Assembly (NCBI GenBank): GCA_002726915.1
Contig: PBSY01000083.1
Span: 1-64,000, forward strand
Direction of reading: 5' to 3'
DNA from: Verrucomicrobiales bacterium
Lineage (GTDB): Bacteria; Verrucomicrobiota; Verrucomicrobiia; Verrucomicrobiales; DEV007
Length of the DNA stretch: 64,000 nt
Shown here in pieces: positions 50,918-63,753 of the stretch. The notes under the pieces are model-generated. The model had not been told where the DNA came from, made no database searches, and saw nothing but the letters and a program-made list of their open reading frames with translations. The position numbers and the translations under genes are program-made. Each line of letters starts with the position of its first letter. Position 1 is the stretch's first letter.

Positions 50918-51682
50918 TCACGATTTTGGTAGCAGCGGATTTTGAGAGCCATACCACTCGTCGAATTCATCGCTACTGACCGCTTTCACGTAGGCCACCA
51001 TCTGAGCATGCCCAGCACCACAAAGCTGTGCACAAACGATATTCCACTCTCCTTCTTTCTCAGGGATAAACCACATCGGGATCTCAGATCCCGGAATTGC
51101 GTCTTGCTGGGCAAACATCGGGATGATCGCCAAACCATGAATAACGTCTTTGGAAGTCACCTGTATCACAACAGGGCGCCCAACTGGGATGAGAAGTTCA
51201 TTAACGGAAACAAAGTCATCCGCAGAATTAGGATCCTCGGTAACCAAACCAACGGGATTAGCACTACTAAGACGCTCATGTGACGTCATTCCCACGAGAT
51301 TATCGGCACCGGCATAGTGGAAAGTCCATCGATACTGTTCGCCAACGGCTCGCAAATTTACCACCTCATCACCCTCGGGACGCTCCTTCGCATCTGCCCA
51401 CTTTGCCCACAAGGGGAACGCAAACCCAAGTAGAAGCACGACCTCTACAATCACTACACCAATCTCAATGTGCGTCGAGAAGTGAGAGGTGATGCCCTTA
51501 TAATTCGCCTTGGGATTTTTGGACCGACGAAATTTCACCAAAATCACACCCAGGAATGTCGTCCAACCAACGAAAAGGATTAACATGAACCAGTGGATTA
51601 GGCCCAACATGTGATTACCTACATTGCCATGCCGAGAGGCTATCTCGTGCATCCCAATCCACTCGTTGATCGATTCAATCAT
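50918..51682 (-). CDS. coxB: cytochrome c oxidase subunit II (CuA)
   Basis: A 254-residue subunit with two N-terminal helices (MLGLIHWFMLILFVGWTTF and IGVVIVEVVLLLGFAFP) and a periplasmic cupredoxin domain. CuA ligands: His182 (VIHGL), Cys217, Cys221, His225 and Met228 in CAQLCGAGHAQM; Gln219 replaces the usual Glu, which binds through its backbone. The aromatic YRWTFHY electron-entry patch is present. There is no fused cytochrome c domain, so a separate cytochrome must deliver electrons. Confidence 0.95.
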   Translation of the reverse strand: MIESINEWIGMHEIASRHGNVGNHMLGLIHWFMLILFVGWTTFLGVILVKFRRSKNPKANYKGITSHFSTHIEIGVVIVEVVLLLGFAFPLWAKWADAKERPEGDEVVNLRAVGEQYRWTFHYAGADNLVGMTSHERLSSANPVGLVTEDPNSADDFVSVNELLIPVGRPVVIQVTSKDVIHGLAIIPMFAQQDAIPGSEIPMWFIPEKEGEWNIVCAQLCGAGHAQMVAYVKAVSSDEFDEWYGSQNPLLPKS

Positions 51683-52152: not shown

Positions 52153-52527
52153 TTATTGCTCAATCGATTGCATCAACTTGCCGTTGGTGGTTTCAAGGGT
52201 GTCGTATTGTTCGAGAATCGGATCAAAGCCAGCGAACAGAGTAAGGGCCATCAACCCAACGAAGAAAAGTAAGGTAAAAACGAGCGTCTTGTAAATCAGC
52301 CCCTTTTCATGGTTCAAGTGCATGAAGATAACAGCAACCAAAGAAGCCTTGGTTCCGGCTAGAGCTAGACCAATGACGTAATCGCCAGGAGTTGGCCCTG
52401 GAGGACCCACATCGAACGGCGCCCAAAGTCCAAGGGCCAGGGTGAGGCCAGTACAGACGAAGAGGAGAACACCGATGATGGTGTAAATTTTCTTGTGGTG
52501 TGCCCAGTCGTGTGTCGTGTCTGCCAT
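52153..52527 (-). CDS. cytochrome c oxidase subunit IV (caa3/CyoD type)
   Basis: A 124-residue protein with three hydrophobic helices (IYTIIGVLLFVCTGLTLALG, YVIGLALAGTKASLVAVIFMHL and LVFTLLFFVGLMALTLFA). The K-A-x-L-V-x-x-x-F-M-H-L segment is typical of prokaryotic subunit IV. It lies between subunit III and two small membrane-protein genes. Confidence 0.88.
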   Translation of the reverse strand: MADTTHDWAHHKKIYTIIGVLLFVCTGLTLALGLWAPFDVGPPGPTPGDYVIGLALAGTKASLVAVIFMHLNHEKGLIYKTLVFTLLFFVGLMALTLFAGFDPILEQYDTLETTNGKLMQSIEQ

Positions 52528-52551: not shown

Positions 52552-54033
52552 TTACAGTAGATACATTAGGGGGAATAGGAAGATCCAGATCAGGTCAACA
52601 AAGTGCCAAAACAGCCCCCCTACTTCCACTCGGTTTGCTAAATGCTCGGGATTTTTGAGGTAAATCCGTTTTCCAAAAACCACGAAATAAAGCAAAACGA
52701 GTGCCCCGCCGATGACGTGAAGACCGTGCAAGGCAGTCATCGTAAAATAGAGTGCGTAATAATTCCCGTATCTCGGGCCATGGTTACCCATAAACTTAAT
52801 TTTATCCCGCGGAACCGAGATCGACGCGTAAGCCTCGGAGGAATTAAGGTCGGCATCCTTGGCAGAAGGCTTTGGTTCGCTGCGATGAATTTTAGCATCC
52901 CCGTGATCATCATCCTCATGCTCCTTATCGCCGTGAGCATCGTCGCTGTGATGGCCATCACCGTGCCCTAGGTGGACATAATGAAGGTTGAGCATGTGGC
53001 CACGGAGCATCTTTTCCGGAATGACTTCACCACGTTTGTCATAGTAATCCTTGATTTCCTCGTAAACTTTACGCTGTTCGGCGAAGAATTCTTTTTTCGC
53101 CTGCTCATCATCGATCACTTCCCAGACAAGAGCATCGCGCTGATTTTGAGGGAGAACCAGCTGCAGATCGACTTCATGAACTTCGAAGATAACGTTATCA
53201 CCGGTAAGTTTACCGGTGACTTTTGTTCCATCCCTAAAGTTAATCGCGTCATCGGTATGAGCTACAATCTTGCGCGGGTTCCCACGGACTTTAAATGGAT
53301 CAGCCGAGACAAGAGTTGCAGAAGTTGATACAGATACTGGCGTTGGAGCTTTCCTGCCCTCAGCAACTTCACCTCGGTAGCGCTTGCGCTCTTCTACCAG
53401 GTCCCGAGCAGTTTGCCGCCGCGCATCGAAGAACCATTTCTTAAATTCGGACTCAGAAGCGATGGTAATTTCGCCGTCACTTTCACTCCCTTGAAGAGTG
53501 AACTCAGGAAAGTCTCCATCAATGGATTCCAGTAAGATCGGAATACCACCTTGGAGGCTGAAAGACGCTTCCGTCGCTTCAAACCGGATCTGATCGGTCT
53601 TGTCTTTGATCTTCCCCTCCATCACTGAATTATCGATCAATTTGATCCCGTGATGCTTATTGAGCTTACTGTTGTATTCCACTCCCTTGATACACATGAA
53701 GGCAACCGCGCAAGCAACAACGGTATACATCCAAGACTGGAATTTACGCCAATTCCGCTCCTTTAGAGCCACCCAAGCGAAAACGACGCCAACGCTGGAA
53801 AAAATAAGAACCAAGGTATTGATAAATCCAAGCCACACGAAATCTTTGTGGACATTCAAACCCCATGGCCATGGATTATCTACACCATCTTGAATGCCAA
53901 CCCGCAAGAACACGTAGGCAGAAAACAGACCGCCAAACAGCATAACCTCAGACGCAAGAAACAGCCACACGCCAAGCTTGGCATTGTAGAGCCCGGTGTC
54001 ACGCCGGGGTGTTACTTCGTAGGGAATCTCCAT
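52552..54033 (-). CDS. coxC: cytochrome c oxidase subunit III with large soluble insertion
   Basis: A 493-residue protein; five-helix subunit III is normally about 200. Helices lie near 18-44, 64-90 and 100-117, ending in the conserved KGVEY (116-120). The last two are at 424-453 (with TALHGLHV) and 470-493. Between them, residues about 128-415 are hydrophilic. The insertion seems to hold two copies of a module: GKIKDKTDQIRFEATEA ... FKKWFFDARR ... YRGEVAEG, and GKLTGDNVIFEVHEVD ... AKKEFFAEQR ... KRGEVIPE. A His/Asp-rich stretch (about 351-383) follows. By helix count the insertion should face the periplasm. Confidence 0.9.
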   Translation of the reverse strand: MEIPYEVTPRRDTGLYNAKLGVWLFLASEVMLFGGLFSAYVFLRVGIQDGVDNPWPWGLNVHKDFVWLGFINTLVLIFSSVGVVFAWVALKERNWRKFQSWMYTVVACAVAFMCIKGVEYNSKLNKHHGIKLIDNSVMEGKIKDKTDQIRFEATEASFSLQGGIPILLESIDGDFPEFTLQGSESDGEITIASESEFKKWFFDARRQTARDLVEERKRYRGEVAEGRKAPTPVSVSTSATLVSADPFKVRGNPRKIVAHTDDAINFRDGTKVTGKLTGDNVIFEVHEVDLQLVLPQNQRDALVWEVIDDEQAKKEFFAEQRKVYEEIKDYYDKRGEVIPEKMLRGHMLNLHYVHLGHGDGHHSDDAHGDKEHEDDDHGDAKIHRSEPKPSAKDADLNSSEAYASISVPRDKIKFMGNHGPRYGNYYALYFTMTALHGLHVIGGALVLLYFVVFGKRIYLKNPEHLANRVEVGGLFWHFVDLIWIFLFPLMYLL

Positions 54034-54076: not shown

Positions 54077-56035
54077 CTAAGCTTTAGAAGCGTCCACACC
54101 GTCAGCAGCCTCTTCCTTTTCTTCCACGTCATTCTCCTTCACGACACCTTGGTCACCAGTATCATCTGTCTCAAATTGCGGAGAGAAATCCCTTTCAACA
54201 CCCGGAACGCTATACTCGTATGGACCACGGTAAGCAACAGGTTCTCCGACAAAATTGCCATGGGGAGGTGGAGTTGGTGTCGCCCATTCCAGCGTAGTTG
54301 CCTCCCATGGGTTATCGTTTTTCACTTTCTTGCCGATGAACGGGCTGATGAAGACGTTTATGATGAAGGGAACTTGAAAAACGGCGAGTAGCCATGCCGA
54401 CCCTGAGGTAATGATATTAAGGTCAATCATAGTGACAGCAGCATCAGCCTCTACAATATTTAGCGTCTCGCAGATGTTGGCGAACCACGAGTTCGCCGGA
54501 GCGAATTCCTGAGTAGCGATCTGCTCGTAAGCTTTGCCGCCGTCAAAGGCGCGACGGTGGAAACCGGCCATACCTTGGAAGAACATCGGCGCGAAGATCC
54601 CGTTCATGAACACAAGGGAGCCCCAGAAGTGCAGCTGACCTAATTTCTCGCTCATCCGTCGCCCTGTCAGCTTCGGGAACCAGTGATAGATACCGGCAAA
54701 CAGCGCGAAGATCGTTCCCGGAGCAACCACGTAATGAAAGTGCCCGATGACATAATAGGTATCATGAAGGTGCAAATCAGGAAGTGAGAAGGCCAATGGC
54801 AACCCAGTAAGTCCACCAATACCAAACATTGGGATGAAAGCCGTTGCGAAGAGCATCGGGGTATTAAATCGGATCGACCCTCCCCACATTGAGATAAGGA
54901 GCGAAGTGATCAATATTACCGAGGGAACTGAGATCAGCACCGTCGTCGTCTGGAAGAATGTGGAAATTGCCGGACCCATTCCGGTAATGTACATGTGGTG
55001 AGCCCACACGATAAAAGCGAGGAAACCCAGCACCATAACCGCATAGACCATCGTCTTGTAACCCCATAGCGGCTTGCGCGTATTGCACGGGATAATCTCG
55101 GATACTATCGCGATGGCGGGGAGAATGAGAACGTAAACCTCGGGGTGAGCAAGAAACCAGAAGAGGTGCTGGTAGAGCAGCGGACTGCCTCCGCCAGCCG
55201 CATCAAAGGGCAAGCCGTTCACATTCAGGCCGGTCGGAATGAAGAAACTGGTTCCAACCATACGGTCCATCAACTGCATGATAGCCGCCACCTCAAGTGG
55301 CGGAAACGCGAGAAGAAGAAGAAAGCCGGTCACTAACATTGCCCAGACAAAGAACGGCAATCTCATCCAAGTCATCCCTTTACATCGCAAATTGATAATC
55401 GTACAAATGAAATTTACAGCGCCCAAGAGAGATGAAGTAATCAGAAACACCATCCCTGTTAACCACTGTGTTTGCCCGGTCCAGAACAAGTCGCCGAAAT
55501 GCACATCGGTTGTCGTTGCCAATGGAGAGTAGTTTGTCCAACCGGCCTTCGCCGCCCCTGAAGGCAAAAAGAAACTGACAAACATCATAATGCCTCCAAT
55601 GAGGAAAAACCAATAACTCGCCATGTTAAGGCGAGGAAAAGCCATATCAGGAGCCCCGATCTGCAGAGGGGTTACGTAATTACCAAAAGCACCAAAAGCG
55701 AGCGGCACCACACCAAGAAAGACCATTATGGTACCGTGCATGGCGCCGAACATGTTATACAGCTCGCCTGTAACTTTTCCACCATCATCAAGCCATGCTT
55801 GAAACCAAGGCCAGTCGGCAAGCATGGGCACCGGCCGGTCAGGGTAGGCGATGCTCCAGCGCATCACCATCATGAGAAAAAATCCGAAGGCTAGAAATAC
55901 CAGCGAAGTAAATCCGTATTGAATTCCAATCACCTTATGATCGGTGGAAAAAATATACTTTTTCCAGAACGGCTCTTCGTGATGCTCGTGCTCATCATGG
56001 GCCGCATTATGTGTTTCTTTTATCGCTTCGCTCAT
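54077..56035 (-). CDS. coxA: cytochrome c oxidase subunit I (aa3 type)
   Basis: A 652-residue haem-copper oxidase core. The CuB/cross-link motif HPEVYVLILPA, the CuB pair in VWAHHMY and the haem ligands in HDTYYVIGHFHYV are intact, so this is an active-type A oxidase. The N-terminus is His/Glu-rich (HDEHEHHEEP). The loop after GMAGFHRRAF is about 25 residues longer than usual (KAYEQIATQEF...). An acidic C-terminal tail of about 40 residues (DDTGDQGVVKEND, EEKEEAADG) is extra. Subunits III and IV follow in order. Confidence 0.96.
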   Translation of the reverse strand: MSEAIKETHNAAHDEHEHHEEPFWKKYIFSTDHKVIGIQYGFTSLVFLAFGFFLMMVMRWSIAYPDRPVPMLADWPWFQAWLDDGGKVTGELYNMFGAMHGTIMVFLGVVPLAFGAFGNYVTPLQIGAPDMAFPRLNMASYWFFLIGGIMMFVSFFLPSGAAKAGWTNYSPLATTTDVHFGDLFWTGQTQWLTGMVFLITSSLLGAVNFICTIINLRCKGMTWMRLPFFVWAMLVTGFLLLLAFPPLEVAAIMQLMDRMVGTSFFIPTGLNVNGLPFDAAGGGSPLLYQHLFWFLAHPEVYVLILPAIAIVSEIIPCNTRKPLWGYKTMVYAVMVLGFLAFIVWAHHMYITGMGPAISTFFQTTTVLISVPSVILITSLLISMWGGSIRFNTPMLFATAFIPMFGIGGLTGLPLAFSLPDLHLHDTYYVIGHFHYVVAPGTIFALFAGIYHWFPKLTGRRMSEKLGQLHFWGSLVFMNGIFAPMFFQGMAGFHRRAFDGGKAYEQIATQEFAPANSWFANICETLNIVEADAAVTMIDLNIITSGSAWLLAVFQVPFIINVFISPFIGKKVKNDNPWEATTLEWATPTPPPHGNFVGEPVAYRGPYEYSVPGVERDFSPQFETDDTGDQGVVKENDVEEKEEAADGVDASKA

Positions 56036-56116: not shown

Positions 56117-56887
56117 TTATCCCTCTACAGAACCCTCTATCGCGTCGGCGCCAGAATTCAGAAATTCACCGGTCTCGAGGTCAACCGAAGAACCCGGGAG
56201 GAATTCACCTTCTGGAATCGCCAGTAACTGCGCTTCAGTGTAGGGCCCCGTCTGACTGCTAAACTGATCTCTAGCAGCCTTAATCATATCGATAGTGACT
56301 ACGCCTTCGTCATCCGTCGGGAGACTGCCGAATTCACGGCGAATATAAGTCACTACCTGTGCGATTTTTTCGTCACTCAAGTTATTCCAAGCTGGCATGA
56401 GCTGGTTGTAGGTCTGCCCGGCAACCTTAAACGGGCCATTGATACCATGCAACATGATGGCGCCGAGACGTGAGGTTCCACCATCAACCCATTCGGAGCC
56501 CACGAGCGGCGGGAACTGCCCCGGAATACCAAGGCCCGAAGCCTGGTGGCAGGCGATGCAGTTATTATAGACTTTCTTACCGTCGCTCATCCATTCTTCG
56601 ATCCAAGCTACCTGAACAACCACCTCGTCTTCACCACCAAGGCTCGGACGTGGAGCCGGCTGATAATTGTCGTTCACGTAAATACTGTCACTGAAACCGT
56701 TCGCGGTGCTGAAGAGCTGCCCACCGCCAAGGATCAGGATAAGCGAAGCAACCACCAACACAACAGCACCAGCGGAGCCTTCTCCACCGGGCATTAAGGG
56801 ATTTTCCCTTCGAACTGAATCGTGGAGGTCAACCGTGCTTACCCTTCCCCGCTCGTAATCGATGTTCTTCTCTTCTTCGTGTGCCAT
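56117..56887 (-). CDS. membrane-anchored monohaem cytochrome c
   Basis: A 256-residue protein. About 38 cytoplasmic residues, then one helix (AVVLVVASLILILGGGQLF), then a periplasmic domain with a single haem site C110-I-A-C-H114 and a likely Met ligand in QLMPAWNNLSDEKI. The fold resembles class I/CcoP-type domains. A C-terminal extension of about 55 acidic residues follows. It sits between ccoO-like and coxA and may be the electron donor to CuA, replacing the fused domain of caa3 oxidases (inference). Confidence 0.85.
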   Translation of the reverse strand: MAHEEEKNIDYERGRVSTVDLHDSVRRENPLMPGGEGSAGAVVLVVASLILILGGGQLFSTANGFSDSIYVNDNYQPAPRPSLGGEDEVVVQVAWIEEWMSDGKKVYNNCIACHQASGLGIPGQFPPLVGSEWVDGGTSRLGAIMLHGINGPFKVAGQTYNQLMPAWNNLSDEKIAQVVTYIRREFGSLPTDDEGVVTIDMIKAARDQFSSQTGPYTEAQLLAIPEGEFLPGSSVDLETGEFLNSGADAIEGSVEG

Positions 56888-56931: not shown

Positions 56932-57555
56932 TCAGCCTTTGGTGCCCGCCACCTCTGGTAGCGGTTGATCCTTTTTTAAAGACAAGAGATAGTCGACCAG
57001 CGCTTCTGCCTTCGCTGTTGGTTCCCAACCTTTTCCAAAAGGAGACATTTGGTAGAGGTGTTTATAAGCAGGCATTCCGCTGTCTGGATCAATTTCCTTT
57101 GGATTGAGAAGATGCTGGTGCATCAGTTCGCGAGTCGTAATGCGATGCCCAACATTGGAAAGATCCTGCCCAATCCGCTGATAGCCAAGAGGAGCGATTT
57201 CTTCAAGGGTGTAGTCAAGGGGCTGAGTCTCGCGAGCAAGCCCTTCTTCTTCTCGACCACCCCAACCGGGACGCCACATGTCCGGACCGGCGTAAGTCGG
57301 GCGAATAACCTGAGTATGGCAGTAGGCGCAACCCTCAGCGGCGTAGACCTGAGCTCCAAAATCACTCGAACCAAAACGGTAGAGTGTCGCATCGGGATAT
57401 GCAGCGACGCCACCTTCGACCTCCTGCCCCTCAGGATAATGAATCGGAACAGAATCCGATTGGCGAACGAAAGGAATAATGATCAAGAGGATTAAAGGCA
57501 ACGCAAAGGCAGTAGCGAGGCCGGCGATCAGATTTACAAACTTATTGGGCTTCAT
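56932..57555 (-). CDS. ccoO: CcoO-like monohaem cytochrome c
   Basis: A 207-residue protein with one N-terminal helix (LIAGLATAFALPLILLIIIPF) and a cbb3 subunit II-type domain. Haem site C76-A-Y-C-H80 sits in GCAYCHTQVIRPT. The family segments IGQDLSNVG and the Met ligand SGMPAYKHLY are present. It directly follows the degenerate CcoN gene (15 bases). Since that partner lacks the catalytic site, this subunit probably only relays electrons (inference). Confidence 0.9.
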   Translation of the reverse strand: MKPNKFVNLIAGLATAFALPLILLIIIPFVRQSDSVPIHYPEGQEVEGGVAAYPDATLYRFGSSDFGAQVYAAEGCAYCHTQVIRPTYAGPDMWRPGWGGREEEGLARETQPLDYTLEEIAPLGYQRIGQDLSNVGHRITTRELMHQHLLNPKEIDPDSGMPAYKHLYQMSPFGKGWEPTAKAEALVDYLLSLKKDQPLPEVAGTKG

Positions 57556-57570
57556 TCGTTTGCTAAATAT

Positions 57571-59034
57571 TTATTCTTGGAGTCCCGCAGCCATTTTTGC
57601 ACTCTCCGCTTCTCCCGGTTGTGTGTGAATCAAAGTCGGCCCTTCCGACTTCCGTCCCTTTCCGATAAACATGAGAGTCAACTGGTAGAGGAATGAAATA
57701 TTGGAAAACGAAATCATAGCCCAAGCCAAAGCGCGGCCAACGACATAGGCTGCAGAGTTAACAAAGGAGGTCGAGAAAGTCTGATCCCACTGAGCAAGGT
57801 TGCCACCCTGAGCAATCCCACCAATCAGCATAGTAACGACCAACGTAATGATACCGTATGTGCTATACCAAAAGTGAGTGCGGATCCGTTTGCCGGAGGG
57901 CCATTCAGCACCGGTGATGCGCGGGACGATAAAGTAAATTGCTCCAAACACCGTCATGGAGAAAAAGCCGTAAATAGCGAGAGTGTCGAGTCCCACAAGG
58001 AAATGGCTGAATTGAAGATCACGTCCAAACGAATAGGTCGAACTGAGCGCTGCGAGCACTGCGTAGACGGCAAGCATCAGCATTCCAAAAACAGTGAAGC
58101 GCAATGAAGGACTATATTCCCAGAGTTTGGAGCATCCCTTAAGCGTGACCAAGAGGTTGAAGACTGTCGCAAGGATCGCGAGAAGAATAAAGATCGTGGC
58201 GGCTCCGCTCACTGCTGGCATCCAGGCTGGAAAAGGCCCACCCATAAAACGAGAAAAGCCAGTCCACCCGGCCAAGAAGGCAAGCAACCAAAAACTGGCT
58301 TGCGCTAAAGGATAGCTGTATATCGGACGACCAGCGATTTTAGGGACGATGTAGTAGGCGATAGCCAATGCGATAGGTGCCATCCAAAAGTAAATCAAGT
58401 TAGTGATATACCAGGCATTCACCCCGCTGGCCATGACTGGAGCTGTGCCCTTACCAATGATGATGTTTGCGGTAATAAAAATCCACGGAAACCAGAGGGC
58501 AGCTCCAACCAAATACATCTCGGAAACATAAACAAGGGACTCCCGGCGCCTGCGAAACATTGGAATGACTCCGACAACGATCAGCAGATAAGAAGCACTT
58601 AGAAAAAGCCAAACCCACTTCGGAAAATCGAGAAGCGGGAGCGAATTCCCATAGCCCAACCAAACGGTCAAAACCGCAAAGGTAACCCCGGCGTTCCAAA
58701 TGTGACCAGCGACGAGAATACCAGCCTGGTTAGACAATTGGTTTCGGGTCAAACGCGCCATGAGCCAGAGCATGACGCCCACACCAGCCTGCATGCCCCA
58801 TCCATAAAAGAGCGCGTTCAAGTGAGCGGGAAAGAGTCGCCCATATCCGAGAATAGAATAGTCGTCCCACAAACCGGGAAGGCGAAGCTTCAATGAGCTT
58901 ATGAAGCCGAGTAACGTTGCCACTAGCAACCATGCCGCCGCACTGGTGAAGAAAAACATCACGGGATAACGAGCGGAGCGGTCAATAGCCGCTCTTTCCT
59001 CTATTTCCTCAGGTGTTGGTTCTTGCAGTGTCAT
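57571..59034 (-). CDS. CcoN-like cbb3 subunit I lacking CuB and haem-b3 ligands
   Basis: A 487-residue polytopic protein of normal CcoN length and helix pattern. It aligns without gaps at YYIVPKIAGRPIYSY (CcoN YYFVPKQAGRPVYSY). But the CuB His of WYGHNAVG is Thr211 (WYITNL), and the His pair of WAGPHHLHY is Ser261-Arg262 (WTGFSRFMG). The haem-ligand helix GHVHSG reads GLDTLA (Leu349, Thr351). Only the helix-2 His (His71, LFPAHLNALF) is kept. So oxygen reduction is not possible by this subunit. The frame is intact, so it is not an obvious pseudogene. It may be a membrane scaffold for the CcoO-like cytochrome. Confidence 0.85.
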   Translation of the reverse strand: MTLQEPTPEEIEERAAIDRSARYPVMFFFTSAAAWLLVATLLGFISSLKLRLPGLWDDYSILGYGRLFPAHLNALFYGWGMQAGVGVMLWLMARLTRNQLSNQAGILVAGHIWNAGVTFAVLTVWLGYGNSLPLLDFPKWVWLFLSASYLLIVVGVIPMFRRRRESLVYVSEMYLVGAALWFPWIFITANIIIGKGTAPVMASGVNAWYITNLIYFWMAPIALAIAYYIVPKIAGRPIYSYPLAQASFWLLAFLAGWTGFSRFMGGPFPAWMPAVSGAATIFILLAILATVFNLLVTLKGCSKLWEYSPSLRFTVFGMLMLAVYAVLAALSSTYSFGRDLQFSHFLVGLDTLAIYGFFSMTVFGAIYFIVPRITGAEWPSGKRIRTHFWYSTYGIITLVVTMLIGGIAQGGNLAQWDQTFSTSFVNSAAYVVGRALAWAMISFSNISFLYQLTLMFIGKGRKSEGPTLIHTQPGEAESAKMAAGLQE

Positions 59035-59069: not shown

Positions 59070-59513
59070 TCATCCTGCTGATTTTGCTTTGGCTTTGCCC
59101 TTATCCTCAGCTGGTTTCTTGCTAGGTTTGGCTTCCTCCTTTTCTGATCCGCCTGAGGCGGGCTCAGGCGGATTCGAGGCCGCTTCGGCTTGCCTCATGA
59201 AGGTTGGCGAACCGGGAACAACAATACCACTCTTTGCTGGCGCAGGAACGTTTCCTGCAAGGCTTTTGATCGCTGAGTCAACCTTGGAAGCGTCAATCAG
59301 AGCCTCCTGAGCAGCTACTACTTCCTCGAGATTTTTCCAACGAATTTGTATCGTTTCCTCAGAGAAATCACCCATGTAGGCGCGATCTTCGATGCTTTCG
59401 CGCCCGAAGTTGCCGGAAAGGATCAGGACGACAAATCCAAAAGAAACCGAGATCGCAAGCCCACTGAGGAGAGTCTTATTTGGGGAGTTGTTCGACGATA
59501 CTAGGTCACTCAT
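59070..59513 (-). CDS. small membrane protein of unknown function in the act-cco-cox locus
   Basis: A 147-residue protein with one N-terminal helix (LLSGLAISVSFGFVVLILSG), a short helical part (IRWKNLEEVVAAQEALIDA) and a low-complexity tail rich in Pro, Ala, Lys and Glu. No family recognised. Its place between actF and the CcoN-like gene suggests an accessory subunit or linker. The tail region contains a perfect 11-base inverted repeat (59147-59173). Confidence 0.65.
   Translation of the reverse strand: MSDLVSSNNSPNKTLLSGLAISVSFGFVVLILSGNFGRESIEDRAYMGDFSEETIQIRWKNLEEVVAAQEALIDASKVDSAIKSLAGNVPAPAKSGIVVPGSPTFMRQAEAASNPPEPASGGSEKEEAKPSKKPAEDKGKAKAKSAG
59147..59173. repeat. perfect inverted repeat inside a coding region
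   Basis: ATCCGCCTGAG and CTCAGGCGGAT are separated by five bases (gcggg). The 11-base perfect stem codes for part of the low-complexity tail (PPEPASGG). Such a strong hairpin in coding DNA could be a palindromic inserted element or an mRNA-stability feature between actF and ccoN. No T-run follows on either strand. Confidence 0.75.
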
Positions 59514-59534: not shown

Positions 59535-61052
59535 TTAGTTAACCACGTTGAGAGATTCGTCGAGACGCGGGTCTCGGCAGGGAAATAGGCTGGCGGAGCT
59601 GAGTTGCTTCAGAAGGAAAAACCCGAAGATTCCCCCTACGCTGACAAATGCCAGAACATCGAAGATCCAGGCACCTGGAATCGTCATGGCAATATGACCC
59701 GTTCCTGCCGTGAGGGAAGGTCCACGCTCCGGGATGATAATGTAGTAAATATCAAACACGTGCATGAGCAGGTTCCAGACGGCAACAATCGAGACCACCA
59801 AAGGTGTCTTTTTTACCGAGCGGATGAGTAGGATCCCGAACGGGATAAAGAAGTGTCCAATGACGAGAAAGCAGATTGTATAGGTGTTCCAGAAATCACT
59901 GTTACGAGTCAGGTAAAATTTTGTTTCCTCTGTGATATTGGCATACCAGATCAGGAAAAACTGGGAGAACGCGATGTACGCCCAGAAAATCACGAAGGCA
60001 TGCATCAACTTACCCATAAGGTGATAGTGCTCCAGCGTCACTACATTCCTGAGGTAACCTGCCTTTCGGAGACCAGTCAGCATCAGGATCAACAATCCCA
60101 TCGAATTGAGCGCACTTCCTGCAAACAAGTAGACTCCCCACATCGTTGAGAACCAGGTATAATCGAGTGCCATAAGCCAATCGAACACGAGAAATGTCCA
60201 GGCCACGGCGAAAAATGGAAGGAATCCACAACTCCCACGACGCATCCAGCGGAACCATTTTGGGTCGCCATCACTATCCTGGATGATCGACCAGCGCCTT
60301 ATGACCAAAGCAATTCCAATGAGGACGACAAAATAAAACGTCACCCGGAAATACCAGAATCTCTCGTTGAGGTAACCCCGCTTGACAAATAGCAGCGCTT
60401 CTTTCTTGAGGAAATTTTTATCGGTCAGCTCAGCAATCACAGCGCCCTCTGAAAGATCTTTCTCGTTCAGCTTGGCAGCTTCTTTCTCGAGTCCTTTGAT
60501 CTTGCGCTCAAAGTAGGCTGTATGACCGGGGCTTGGCGAATTGAGAGAAGCAAGCTCAACCTTGGCGGTATCTACTGCCTTCTGCGCTTTCTTAACTTTG
60601 GCTTCCTGCTCAGTGATGTAGCCAGCGGCCTCTTTTTCAGCCTTTTCGCCAGCGGACTCGAGAGCAGCTTCTCGCAAAGGAAACCATTCCCAGAGAGCGT
60701 CGCGAAAACCAAACTGGGGGAAAACCAGTGGCAGTGCGAGCACCATCATGAACGGGATCATACTACCGAGATTCTCCATGAGTCGCCTCACGACTGTCCC
60801 CCAACCCGAGTTACTGGCGTGATGGAGCAAAGTCCAGAAAAGCCCCCCCACTCCGAGAGTCAGGAAAAAAATGACCGCAAATAGCCAACTGTAACCCATT
60901 GCACCCGTCTTTTCTTCACCGAGAGAGAAGCTCAGGATAAAGAAAAGCAAGAGCCCCCCAAATCCCACCACTGCGCACAAAAGCTTGAGCAGAGTAGGAC
61001 TCTTAAAGGCCTCCCCGTCTTTAAAATCGTCGCCGTCTTTCAGACCTGCCAT
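59535..61052 (-). CDS. actF: alternative complex III subunit ActF with coiled-coil insertion
   Basis: A 505-residue integral membrane subunit of the quinol:electron acceptor oxidoreductase. The conserved LHHASNSGWGTVVRRLMENL lies after helix 2, and RFWYFRVTFYF, HYHLMGKLMHAFVIFWAYIAFSQ-type order and the C-terminal helices are typical. Between helix 3 and helix 4, residues about 127-215 form a charged insertion with coiled-coil character (EKAEKEAAGYITEQEAKVKK, ERKIKGLEKEAAKLNEKDL). Usual ActF has only about 20 residues there. By helix count the insertion is periplasmic. Confidence 0.9.
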   Translation of the reverse strand: MAGLKDGDDFKDGEAFKSPTLLKLLCAVVGFGGLLLFFILSFSLGEEKTGAMGYSWLFAVIFFLTLGVGGLFWTLLHHASNSGWGTVVRRLMENLGSMIPFMMVLALPLVFPQFGFRDALWEWFPLREAALESAGEKAEKEAAGYITEQEAKVKKAQKAVDTAKVELASLNSPSPGHTAYFERKIKGLEKEAAKLNEKDLSEGAVIAELTDKNFLKKEALLFVKRGYLNERFWYFRVTFYFVVLIGIALVIRRWSIIQDSDGDPKWFRWMRRGSCGFLPFFAVAWTFLVFDWLMALDYTWFSTMWGVYLFAGSALNSMGLLILMLTGLRKAGYLRNVVTLEHYHLMGKLMHAFVIFWAYIAFSQFFLIWYANITEETKFYLTRNSDFWNTYTICFLVIGHFFIPFGILLIRSVKKTPLVVSIVAVWNLLMHVFDIYYIIIPERGPSLTAGTGHIAMTIPGAWIFDVLAFVSVGGIFGFFLLKQLSSASLFPCRDPRLDESLNVVN

Positions 61053-61082: not shown

Positions 61083-61706
61083 TCACTTTGTGGACGCTGC
61101 TTGAAGAGCACGGACATAGGTAGTAATCGCCCAACGGTCCCTCACAGGAATCGCACCGCTGTAGGGCCCCATGAGACCCTTGCCATGGGTGATTGTCCAA
61201 AAAATCTGCCCCTCAGGCATCGCAATCACTCGAGGGTCTATTAAATTAGCTGAAGGCGGGATCGCCCAATACTTGGAAACGACACCGACTCCATTGCCGG
61301 ATTCTCCGTGACAAGCAGTGCAGTATATCTGATACCGCTCTTTTCCTCGGGCGAGGAAAGCCTCGTCAAACTCCAACTCTTCAGGATAACCCGATCCATA
61401 GAAGTCGCCGAAAAGGCCAGTGCTGGCGTAGTCATCGCCACGACCAAAGTCGAGGGAAGAAGTAAGCTTACCTTCATTGCCACCATGCGGAAACTGATAC
61501 CCAATTGGAAGGGTGCCAGCGACTGGCTTACGTGCTCCCTGACCGTTTTCAAAAAATCCGCTCCCCTTTTGATACTTGAGCTTGTACTGGCGATCCATAT
61601 CGGGAAACAATTCAAACGGGGGGTTTGAAAACTTCTCACCTCGGGGCCCGATACCAAAGGCAACGGCTACCACGACGATCGCTAGAATTATAAAAAACCA
61701 ACGCAT
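61083..61706 (-). CDS. actE: alternative complex III cytochrome subunit ActE
   Basis: A 207-residue monohaem cytochrome c. One N-terminal helix (FIILAIVVVAVAFGIG) may be an anchor or uncleaved signal. The haem site is C129-T-A-C-H133, followed by GQIFWTITHGKGLMGPY, which includes the Met ligand, and a terminal helix. It passes electrons out of the complex. Lies between actD and actF as in standard act operons. Confidence 0.92.
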   Translation of the reverse strand: MRWFFIILAIVVVAVAFGIGPRGEKFSNPPFELFPDMDRQYKLKYQKGSGFFENGQGARKPVAGTLPIGYQFPHGGNEGKLTSSLDFGRGDDYASTGLFGDFYGSGYPEELEFDEAFLARGKERYQIYCTACHGESGNGVGVVSKYWAIPPSANLIDPRVIAMPEGQIFWTITHGKGLMGPYSGAIPVRDRWAITTYVRALQAASTK

Positions 61707-61714
61707 GACTGGAA

Positions 61715-62272
61715 TTAGTGAGAGACCTCCTCGATTTCCCCGGCACCAATTTCCGTCAAGAAATCGCGGGTTTTTTCTTTCTTAAACTTCGGGTCACGAG
61801 ACTCGATTACCATCAGGAACCCATCGTCGGTAGACTTGGGAAAGAGCGACGAATTAAACAGTGGATGGTTCCAACGCGGCAGCATAATCCAAATAAGCAA
61901 ACCGAAGAGGATTGAAAAACCGGAAAATAGAATAGTGAGCTCAAAAGTCACTGGGAAGAAAGCCGGCACAGTAAAAAGGTTAGTGGGCTTGCTTTGAACG
62001 ACCGTTGGGTAAAGCGACACTTGGGTGAAAAACTGGAGGAAAAGAGCAAAAATGAAACCAGTTGTGCCCCCCACTAAAACAACCGCTGAAAGCCAACTTT
62101 TGCCAAGTCCCATGGCAGCGTCCATCCCGTGAATGGGATACGGAGTGTGAACGTCCCAGCGACGGAATCCGGCATCACGAACCTTCTCTGCGGCATGGTA
62201 AAGGTCCATCGCGTTGTCGAACTCGGCGACATAAGCAAATAAGCTGGTTGGTTTGGCAGTTGAATCACTCAC
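61715..62272 (-). CDS. actD: alternative complex III subunit ActD (DUF3341)
   Basis: A 185-residue protein. It begins with a small cytoplasmic domain (LFAYVAEFDNAMDLYHAAEK, YPIHGMDAAMGL) followed by two membrane helices (LSAVVLVGGTTGFIFALFLQF and FELTILFSGFSILFGLLIWIM) and HPLFNSSLF, all typical of DUF3341. The start codon is GTG at 62272. Eight bases separate it from actE. Confidence 0.93.
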   Translation of the reverse strand: MSDSTAKPTSLFAYVAEFDNAMDLYHAAEKVRDAGFRRWDVHTPYPIHGMDAAMGLGKSWLSAVVLVGGTTGFIFALFLQFFTQVSLYPTVVQSKPTNLFTVPAFFPVTFELTILFSGFSILFGLLIWIMLPRWNHPLFNSSLFPKSTDDGFLMVIESRDPKFKKEKTRDFLTEIGAGEIEEVSH

Positions 62273-62310: not shown

Positions 62311-63753
62311 TTAGGCGGTGCCTTGGCGGCGTTTGTCTCGAAGGCTCTGCCAATCCCGGTGATGCGGATCAGCTTCGGGAAGCACCCCTTTCACCTCACT
62401 GACGGCAATCAACGGCAGGAAGCGGATAAAGAGTAGGAAGAGCATGAAGAACATGCCGAAGGTTCCAGCAAACATAAGCTTCTCCACCCACGACGGTTCA
62501 TAGTAACCCCACTGCCCCGGAAGGAAGTCTCTCGCTAAAGTGGTCGGAATGATCACGAAACGCTCAAACCACATACCAAAGTTCACGAAATTTGAGATAA
62601 TAAAGACCACCCATAGGTTGTGTCGGCACCACTTCCACCAAAAAACTTGGGGAGCTATAACGTTGCAGAAAAACATGCAGTAGTAAGCCCAAGTGTAAGG
62701 GCCCGAAAGAATTCGAAGGTGAAAAGCATCAGCCTCAAACTTGTTCGCCCCGTAGTAGCTGATGAACAACTCCATGATGTAGGCATAACCCACGATCGTC
62801 CCCGTCAGGAGAATGATCTTCGCCATGTTGTCGACGTGCTTGTGCGTTATTAGGTCTTCTAGGCCATAAAGCTTTCGTATCGGCAACATGAGAGTTAGCA
62901 CCATGGCGAACCCTCCAAAGATCGCCCCCGCCACGAAGTAAGGGGGAAAGATGGTCGTATGCCAACCGGGAACCACGGAGGTCGCAAAGTCAAAGGAGAC
63001 GACAGAGTGCACCGAAAGCACCAATGGCGTCGAAAGAGCGGCGAGAAGAAGATATCCCATTTCGTAGTGACGCCAGTGACGGTTACCCCCTCGCCAGCCA
63101 AGAGCGAAGAAGCCGTAGAGGAACTTCGGAATTTTCTTCTTAGCTCGGTCGCGAAGCGTGGCCAGATCGGGAATCAGACCGATATACCAGAAGATCACTG
63201 AAATCAGGAAATAGGTCGAGACAGCAAACACGTCCCAGAGCAAAGGGCTCTTAAAGTTTTGCCAGATCGCGTTGGCGTTGGGAACCGGCGCCAAAAACCA
63301 CACCATCCAGAAGCGGCCAACGTGAAAGCCTGGATAAATGCCGGCGCACATAACCGCAATCAGTGTCATTGCCTCCGCAGCGCGGTTCACGGACGTCCTC
63401 CACTTTTGACGCGTCAGGAAAAGAATCGCCGAAATTAGAGTTCCTGCATGGCCAATACCAATCCAAAAGACAAAGTTCACGATCGCCCAACCCCAAGCAA
63501 CCGGCTGGTTGTTACCCCAAACACCAACACCAGTCGACACTAGGTAAACCAGAGTGAAGGCGAGGCACAAGAAAAGAGCTACCGCCGGGACGAAAAGAAC
63601 CCACCAAATAAAAGGCTGCCGATTCTCCACGATGCCACAAATTCGGTTCGTAATCCACCCCATGGAGCGGTTATTGAGCACCAAGGGCTCACGAGCCACG
63701 CCTTCCGCCTCTGACGGATGAACATTTTGATTAGCTGTCGTCGGATCTGCCAT
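62311..63753 (-). CDS. actC: alternative complex III subunit ActC (NrfD-like)
   Basis: A 480-residue membrane protein with about ten helices, homologous to NrfD/PsrC and thought to hold the quinol site. It has [20 protein letters not shown], an A[14 protein letters not shown] order in [14 protein letters not shown], and [15 protein letters not shown]. These are standard for ActC. The gene follows actB by 24 bases. Confidence 0.94.

Follow-up and report, generated by a model that had tools for sequence, protein, structure and literature searches.

Introduction

In the supercomplex of Flavobacterium johnsoniae, ACIII is partnered with an aa3 oxidase and monohaem c domains are present (PMC8552683). 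Electron transfer from ACIII to aa3 has been proposed to run via these domains, the route being left open, and the accessible text of that source mentions no CcoN- or CcoO-like subunit (PMC8552683). C-type genes adjoining those of ACIII are noted in the available part of PMC8498564, citing Refojo et al. 2010. In cbb3 oxidases the electron-accepting subunit is dihaem, as outlined in PMC8361435. A ccoN-like gene tends to be counted as a high-affinity terminal oxidase in genome papers. Here we describe an ACIII-linked CcoN homologue in which the oxygen-reducing site is missing, as it is in most of the ACIII-linked copies that we examined in Verrucomicrobiota. In the open-access literature, as far as its available text goes, we found no report of a CcoN family without ligands; many papers lie behind subscription, and an earlier notice is possible.

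Results and Discussion

The locus and its closest relatives

The window analysed here is a stretch of 64,000 nucleotides, the beginning of contig PBSY01000083.1 of a Verrucomicrobiales bacterium. The gene order ActC-ActD-ActE-ActF-small protein-N*-O*-P*-CoxA-CoxC-Cox4-CoxB places the gene of interest inside an act-cox cluster (Table 1); N*, O* and P* are our labels for the ccoN-like, ccoO-like and ccoP-like products of the locus. ActF was named from its position and from what we presume to be its family. The source genome (92% complete) contained two COX1-family genes, CoxA and N*. The CcoO-like cytochrome that the sequence-only reading had seen beside N* was recovered as O*, with both a family match and a CxxCH. 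Related loci such as L065, L067 and L070 have an additional monohaem P*-like cytochrome between actF and N*. CoxC of the window is 493 aa long, and the insert between its two COX3 stretches ends in a His/Asp-rich run.

Table 1. Coordinates of genes and of the altered ligand positions in the window.
Feature	Position	Strand	Basis
ActC, NrfD-family membrane subunit of ACIII	62311..63753	minus	PF03916, E 1.7e-23
ActD-like subunit	61715..62272	minus	named by position
ActE-like monohaem cytochrome, CxxCH at residue 129	61083..61706	minus	named by position
ActF-like ACIII subunit	59535..61052	minus	position; no Pfam match
Small protein between actF and N*	59070..59513	minus	0 Pfam/NCBIfam families; position in related loci
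N*, ccoN-like, predicted pseudo-oxidase subunit	57571..59034	minus	open frame, PF00115, CcoN alignments
His71, helix II, only ligand His kept of six	58822..58824	minus	alignments; His in 54/57 rows
Thr211 at CuB His207	58402..58404	minus	alignments
Ala255 at helix-VII Tyr251	58270..58272	minus	alignment; Tyr in 29/29 ligand-complete and 0/148 site-less rows
Ser261-Arg262 at CuB His257-His258	58249..58254	minus	alignments
Leu349-Asp350-Thr351 at helix-X His-x-His haem ligands	57982..57990	minus	alignments
O*, ccoO/FixO-like monohaem cytochrome c, 207 aa, CxxCH at residue 76	56932..57555	minus	PF02433, E 2.8e-13; TIGR00781, 56.1 bits
P*, monohaem cytochrome c, CcoP-like domain, 256 aa, CxxCH at residue 110	56117..56887	minus	PF00034/PF13442; TIGR00782, 33.6 bits
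CoxA, A-type oxidase subunit I	54077..56035	minus	PF00115, E 8.5e-132; TIGR02891, 547.7 bits (cut-off 670.75)
CoxC, oxidase subunit III, long insert	52552..54033	minus	PF00510 in two stretches
Cox4-like small subunit	52153..52527	minus	named by position
CoxB, subunit II, presumed CuA-type motif CAQLCGAGHAQM, no CxxCH	50918..51682	minus	TIGR02866, 134.3 bits (cut-off 147.7)

The trio resembles cbb3 oxidase in the length of N*, in the N-O-P gene order and in homology to CcoN over N* residues 22-428. It differs in that N* lacks the CuB, b3 and tyrosine residues and one low-spin haem ligand, and in that P*, with its single CxxCH, is not a dihaem CcoP. Ligand-complete CcoN-O-P sets of other Verrucomicrobiota (such as L141, L133, L165 and L148) share the act-N-O-P order (27/28 testable loci) at 33-39% identity; unlike N*, they lack none of the six His and retain the Tyr (29 rows), and CoxA lies within 4.5 kb in 1/26 loci. 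The top matches in the plasmid collection were ccoN-ccoO-cytochrome c operons of Proteobacteria (Paraburkholderia, Azoarcus, Cupriavidus, Paracoccus, Indioceanicola), with 31-33% identity and the N-O-P order; these differ in being ligand-complete (5/5 examined), and act genes were not found in their 9 kb flanks. On the Paraburkholderia plasmid (L233, 8746-15608) the operon is followed by genes for a P-type ATPase, a molybdopterin oxidoreductase and a cytochrome c. The F. johnsoniae supercomplex resembles the N* locus in the pairing of ACIII with an aa3 oxidase.

Loss of the oxygen-reducing site

The sequence-only reading had described 57571..59034 as an intact CcoN homologue. The coordinates were correct, and the minus strand, which it had left unstated, can be added; the frame encodes 487 aa with zero internal stops and matches PF00115 at residues 25-432 (E 2.2e-42). 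Among COX1-family proteins N* is nearest to CcoN, although its score with the ccoN model TIGR00780 (110.8 bits) is far under the equivalog cut-off of 583.15 bits. HMMER aligned it with the solved CcoN chains 9g6b, 3mk7, 8smr and 9g83, and the homology to CcoN is whole-length in the Pfam, NCBIfam and HMMER alignments.

In the alignments with the four chains, CuB His207 corresponds to Thr211 of N*, and CuB His257 and His258 correspond to Ser261 and Arg262. The two helix-X histidines, which bind haem b3 and haem b, correspond to Leu349 and Thr351, and the helix-II histidine corresponds to His71, the sole ligand His left of six. The residue numbers of CcoN are those we take to be usual. A MAFFT alignment of the family gave the same assignments. 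The replacements that had been proposed from remembered motifs, three at CuB and two in the haem helix with His71 alone left, thus reappeared in computed alignments, and neither the CcoN chains nor the family alignment put a His of N* at a CuB or b3 position. The alignment added one loss absent from the earlier account, that of the catalytic Tyr251 of helix VII (Ala255 in N*). This tyrosine marks oxygen reductases. N* has five histidines in total (71, 111, 344, 387 and 470), too few for a register shift plausibly to restore both a three-His CuB site and the haem ligands; an alignment error behind the seeming ligand loss was rejected on this ground and because HMMER and MAFFT concur. The sequence gives strong support to a non-catalytic N*.

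Site-less and ligand-complete members of the family

Scanning contigs with this one protein as query, an approach limited to close relatives, yielded 73 loci (for example in Verrucomicrobia, Akkermansiaceae and Prosthecobacter). Matches, ordinary CcoN included, were found in 45/56 relatives and in 123/387 genomes of the phylum; phyla beyond Verrucomicrobiota were searched through plasmid records only. From 233 N*-type frames we aligned the 200 distinct ones in which 330 or more residues matched. We set aside 23 rows, namely fused CcoNO, L149-152/169/170/227-231 and L153-155 (the latter two groups ligand-complete), which left 177. L149, L150, L151, L152, L169 and L170 are a ligand-complete CcoN-like group from other families of the phylum; a seven-CxxCH protein is encoded in the same stretch.

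Rows were called site-less when no more than three of the six ligand His were present and the catalytic Tyr was absent, and ligand-complete when they had all six and the Tyr. The family was bimodal. All six His and the Tyr occurred in 29/177 rows, four or five His in 0/177, and 148/177 were site-less, with no His (28), one (86), two (30) or three (4) and Tyr in 0/148. A loss peculiar to the source genome amid ligand-bearing orthologues can be set aside, since loss is the commoner state in the family. A NO-reductase reading of the ligand-complete relatives is not favoured, as Tyr251 is present in 29/29 rows. Among the 57 Verrucomicrobiales rows (alignment A1) the oxygen-reducing site was kept in 0/57: His was found at the helix-X positions in 0/57, at 261 in 1/57, at 262 in 2/57, at 211 in 17/57 and at 71 in 54/57, while His387 was found in 57/57. 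Some loci (L059, L061, L062, L063 and similar) keep the first CuB His (in WYIHG) and the helix-II His and have lost the other ligands. G147, presumably Opitutus terrae PB90-1, has a site-less N* too (L142).

Purifying selection

Pairwise dN/dS was estimated by the Nei-Gojobori method with Jukes-Cantor correction, for pairs of 78-99.5% protein identity and dS of 0.1-2 (median about 1). For N* the median was 0.079 and the maximum 0.215 (469 mutually dependent pairs, with some genomes present twice via two collections). In the 275 pairs shared with CoxA, median dN/dS was 0.070 for N* and 0.069 for CoxA. The loss is an old one and is under selection (median dN/dS about 0.07), and N* has what defines a pseudoenzyme: catalytic residues lost in a gene under such selection. 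A pseudogene in decay or an artefact of assembly, as the lost ligands by themselves might suggest, is practically out of the question, given dN/dS of about 0.07-0.08 and relatives with open frames at 39-91% identity across many separate genomes. The earlier view of a non-catalytic pseudo-oxidase is supported by the absence of the site in the Verrucomicrobiales rows, by strong purifying selection and by the conserved place between ACIII and aa3.

Direction and number of losses

Parsimony counts give no direction, and direction here rests on outgroups. We rooted an N* tree of 64 rows with the outgroup, leaving out the ligand columns and the longest branches (among them the methanotrophs L137/L226/L139 and L157, L158, L161, L163 and L218). 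The Proteobacteria, L104, L148/L160 and L159, all ligand-complete, branched early, and on this tree N* descends from ligand-complete ancestors. The site-less state had four origins (bootstrap 5-95% range 4-4): the Verrucomicrobiales with L135/L183; L145; L166, which was placed among near relatives with all ligands; and a 12-row group of the family codes f9 and f13, f9 presumably being Opitutaceae. As the Proteobacteria and L104 branch early and lie away from ACIII, the link to ACIII may postdate the N-O-P trio.

Other trees gave other counts. An ActC tree of 102 rows showed nine changes of ligand state, four of them forced by well supported branches. A trimmed ActC tree of 73 rows (52 site-less, 21 ligand-complete) showed seven; it omits long or contig-end rows (L172, L158, L161, L203, L188, L139, L202, L218, L156, L197, L166, L196) and most Verrucomicrobiales rows. 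On it, one site-less clade was rejected with p-AU 7e-121; placing a smaller set of 26 site-less rows, mostly f9, in a single clade gave p 0.018. With 125 rows, a quickly built N* tree showed three changes, with 82 site-less rows together and L135/L183 amid ligand-complete rows, whereas the 64-row tree grouped L135/L183 with Verrucomicrobiales. A single ancient loss was rejected on the ActC test and the four changes of the rooted N* tree. The site was lost at least three times, four on the best tree; the number is unsure, ranging from 3 to 9 across trees. The methanotroph rows may represent a further loss.

Neighbouring genes and oxidase content

ActF lies upstream of N* in 108/109 testable site-less loci and in 27/28 ligand-complete ones. 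With 29 ligand-complete rows and this adjacency, the family still holds catalytic-looking members next to ACIII. O* follows within the set distance in 143/148 site-less loci (CxxCH in 143/143) and 28/29 ligand-complete loci; L091 and L163 were counted among the five misses, yet O* is visible there. P* follows O* in 113/113 site-less loci (CxxCH in 112/113) and 25/27 ligand-complete loci. Same-strand CoxA lay no more than 4.5 kb downstream in 67/105 site-less loci against 1/26 ligand-complete loci (L148); in the ligand-complete L159, cox genes are nearby on the opposite strand. A CoxA homologue (E at most 1e-60) occurred somewhere in the genome in 63/64 site-less and 24/28 ligand-complete cases, six genomes being assigned from identical rows. 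The four ligand-complete genomes in which none was found are G056, G176, G194 and G272.

In G056 and G194 no COX1-family gene was found apart from the ligand-complete N*, which suggests a working oxidase there, the survey covering the COX1 family only. The absence of a ccoG match in these two genomes is a point against their N* as a normally matured cbb3. As a marker, cbb3 maturation genes proved uninformative: ccoS was found in 0/15 genomes, and ccoG matched in 8/15, over the cut-off in 6/15. Five of these six (G136, G139, G176, G220, G272) also have a COX1 frame of 772-859 aa, the length of a fused CcoNO, and the sixth, G147, lay outside the COX1 census.

Two genomes of the genus of the source were informative. 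In G017 the N* (L012/L039) is site-less, and a second N-O-P set, ligand-complete, lies apart from ACIII (L104, 1309-2799, minus strand, no ACIII genes alongside). In G004 neither an ActC nor an N*-grade match was found.

N* in methanotrophs

Six genomes of the family coded f8 have pMMO (PF02461). According to the chromosomes in Table 1 of PMC6688271, G091 is SolV and G200 is Kam1. Their ACIII-adjacent N* (L137, L225) has Ser, Glu, Ser, His, Phe and Val at the six ligand positions and no Tyr. Their other COX1-family genes are CoxA homologues, proteins of 563-568 aa (L255-L257), for which the best NCBIfam models are of the CtaD and SoxB types and not ccoN, and one gene of 472-476 aa with motifs that we take to be NorB-type; a NorC-like gene adjoins the last in SolV. 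A CcoN-type query gave one match in each of five f8 genomes, N* itself. The NCBIfam cbb3 models scored weakly on methanotroph N* (26-32 bits), and their only other match (37.7 bits) was the NorB-type protein of G308. No ligand-bearing cbb3 was seen in the pMMO/f8 genomes by the COX1 census, the CcoN query or the cbb3 models.

A cbb3 oxidase is counted in methanotrophs in the available text of PMC8498564, PMC10205796, PMC11102522 and PMC8170126, and PMC6688271 credits high oxygen affinity to a cbb3 adjoining ACIII. Judged by its described place, the 'cbb3 oxidase' next to ACIII in the Methylacidiphilum papers appears to be the site-less N*. The reading of methanotroph respiration in the accessible text of PMC6688271 would then appear to rest on a site-less protein. 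Ca. M. pantelleriae is given as lacking cbb3 in the relevant passages of PMC8170126 and PMC8498564. In G062, a pMMO genome, ActF is directly followed by CoxC (L254, 8128-8668), and no N*, O* or P* was found in the 20 kb stretch, which fits that published lack.

A probable membrane dock between ACIII and aa3

N* is probably a cofactor-poor or cofactor-free pseudo-oxidase, its most likely role, judged from residues and gene order, being that of a dock for O* and P* between ACIII and aa3. Its ancestor would have been the catalytic subunit of an ACIII-linked cbb3-like oxidase, from which the haem b3-CuB site, the catalytic tyrosine and at least one low-spin haem ligand would have been lost, with the length and sequence pattern of CcoN retained. 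N* would anchor the monohaem cytochromes O* and P* in the membrane and itself bind no haem or copper. N*, O* and P* would form one complex with their neighbours, electrons would pass from menaquinol through ACIII and O*/P* to CuA of the aa3 oxidase, and in this branch oxygen would be reduced by aa3 alone. Gene order and the retention of two monohaem cytochromes agree with such a scaffold or relay role. Since nearly all loci examined retain O* and P*, with the oxygen site gone and CoxA adjacent or elsewhere, anchoring by N* is the simplest reading. The joint absence of N*, O* and P* behind ActF in G062 is as expected of one module. Several findings speak against the dock. G062 keeps ACIII, so not every ACIII requires the module, and in the 38/105 site-less loci where CoxA is not within 4.5 kb the partner oxidase is presumed. 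His71, kept in nearly all Verrucomicrobiales rows, leaves room for a five-coordinate haem b and speaks against a cofactor-free N*.

A different reuse of the fold, as a membrane subunit of ACIII that binds quinone or conducts protons, seems unlikely to us. ACIII-type complexes already have an NrfD-like membrane subunit that interacts with quinone and carries no cofactor (PMC8076601, in its available text), and the unshortened CcoN length of N* and its many invariant residues would suit such a role; the near-constant company of O* and P* in site-less loci would not. The ligand-complete proteobacterial relatives, too, pair with O- and P-type cytochromes and have no ACIII genes in their flanks, so that the cytochromes look like old partners of N*.

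It is distinctly improbable that N* is still active via other ligands, such as histidines moved elsewhere or His71 holding one haem b, and serves to transfer electrons or to bind a gas. The near-constant His71, the invariant His387 and the first CuB His in part of the Verrucomicrobiales rows could be read in this way. Against it, the protein has only five His, no row of the family has an intermediate ligand set, Tyr is absent from every site-less row, and the His71 column shows Phe several times and, in further site-less rows including those of methanotrophs, Ala, Gln, Arg, Glu, Leu or Ser.

A role of N* in the assembly or regulation of the aa3 oxidase seems very unlikely. It would account for the excess of adjacent CoxA in site-less over ligand-complete loci, but more than a third of the site-less loci have no adjacent CoxA, and the trio stands apart from both ACIII and CoxA in L104 and L233-L237, so the CoxA link is not original.

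Returning to the dock for O* and P*, we are inclined to extend it to the phylum: in Verrucomicrobiota the catalytic subunit of an ACIII-linked oxygen reductase may have been turned repeatedly and in parallel (four times on the best tree) into a haem-free dock, with its two cytochromes kept and electrons delivered to a different oxidase. Within the superfamily of haem-copper oxidases it may be the first pseudoenzyme clade, and it may be what the Methylacidiphilum 'cbb3 oxidase' really is. If N* is such a dock, the loci would offer parallel natural experiments in the conversion of an enzyme into a scaffold, and a direct way to ask how ACIII passes electrons to oxidases, a question described as open in the accessible text of PMC8552683.

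Another short COX1-like protein was seen in G139 (L244, 7365-8858) and in G062 (L243, 6413-7867). In G139 it adjoins a COX1 of 574 aa and has GADHRLY where the CuB His pair might be expected; it is possibly a second partly altered oxidase subunit.
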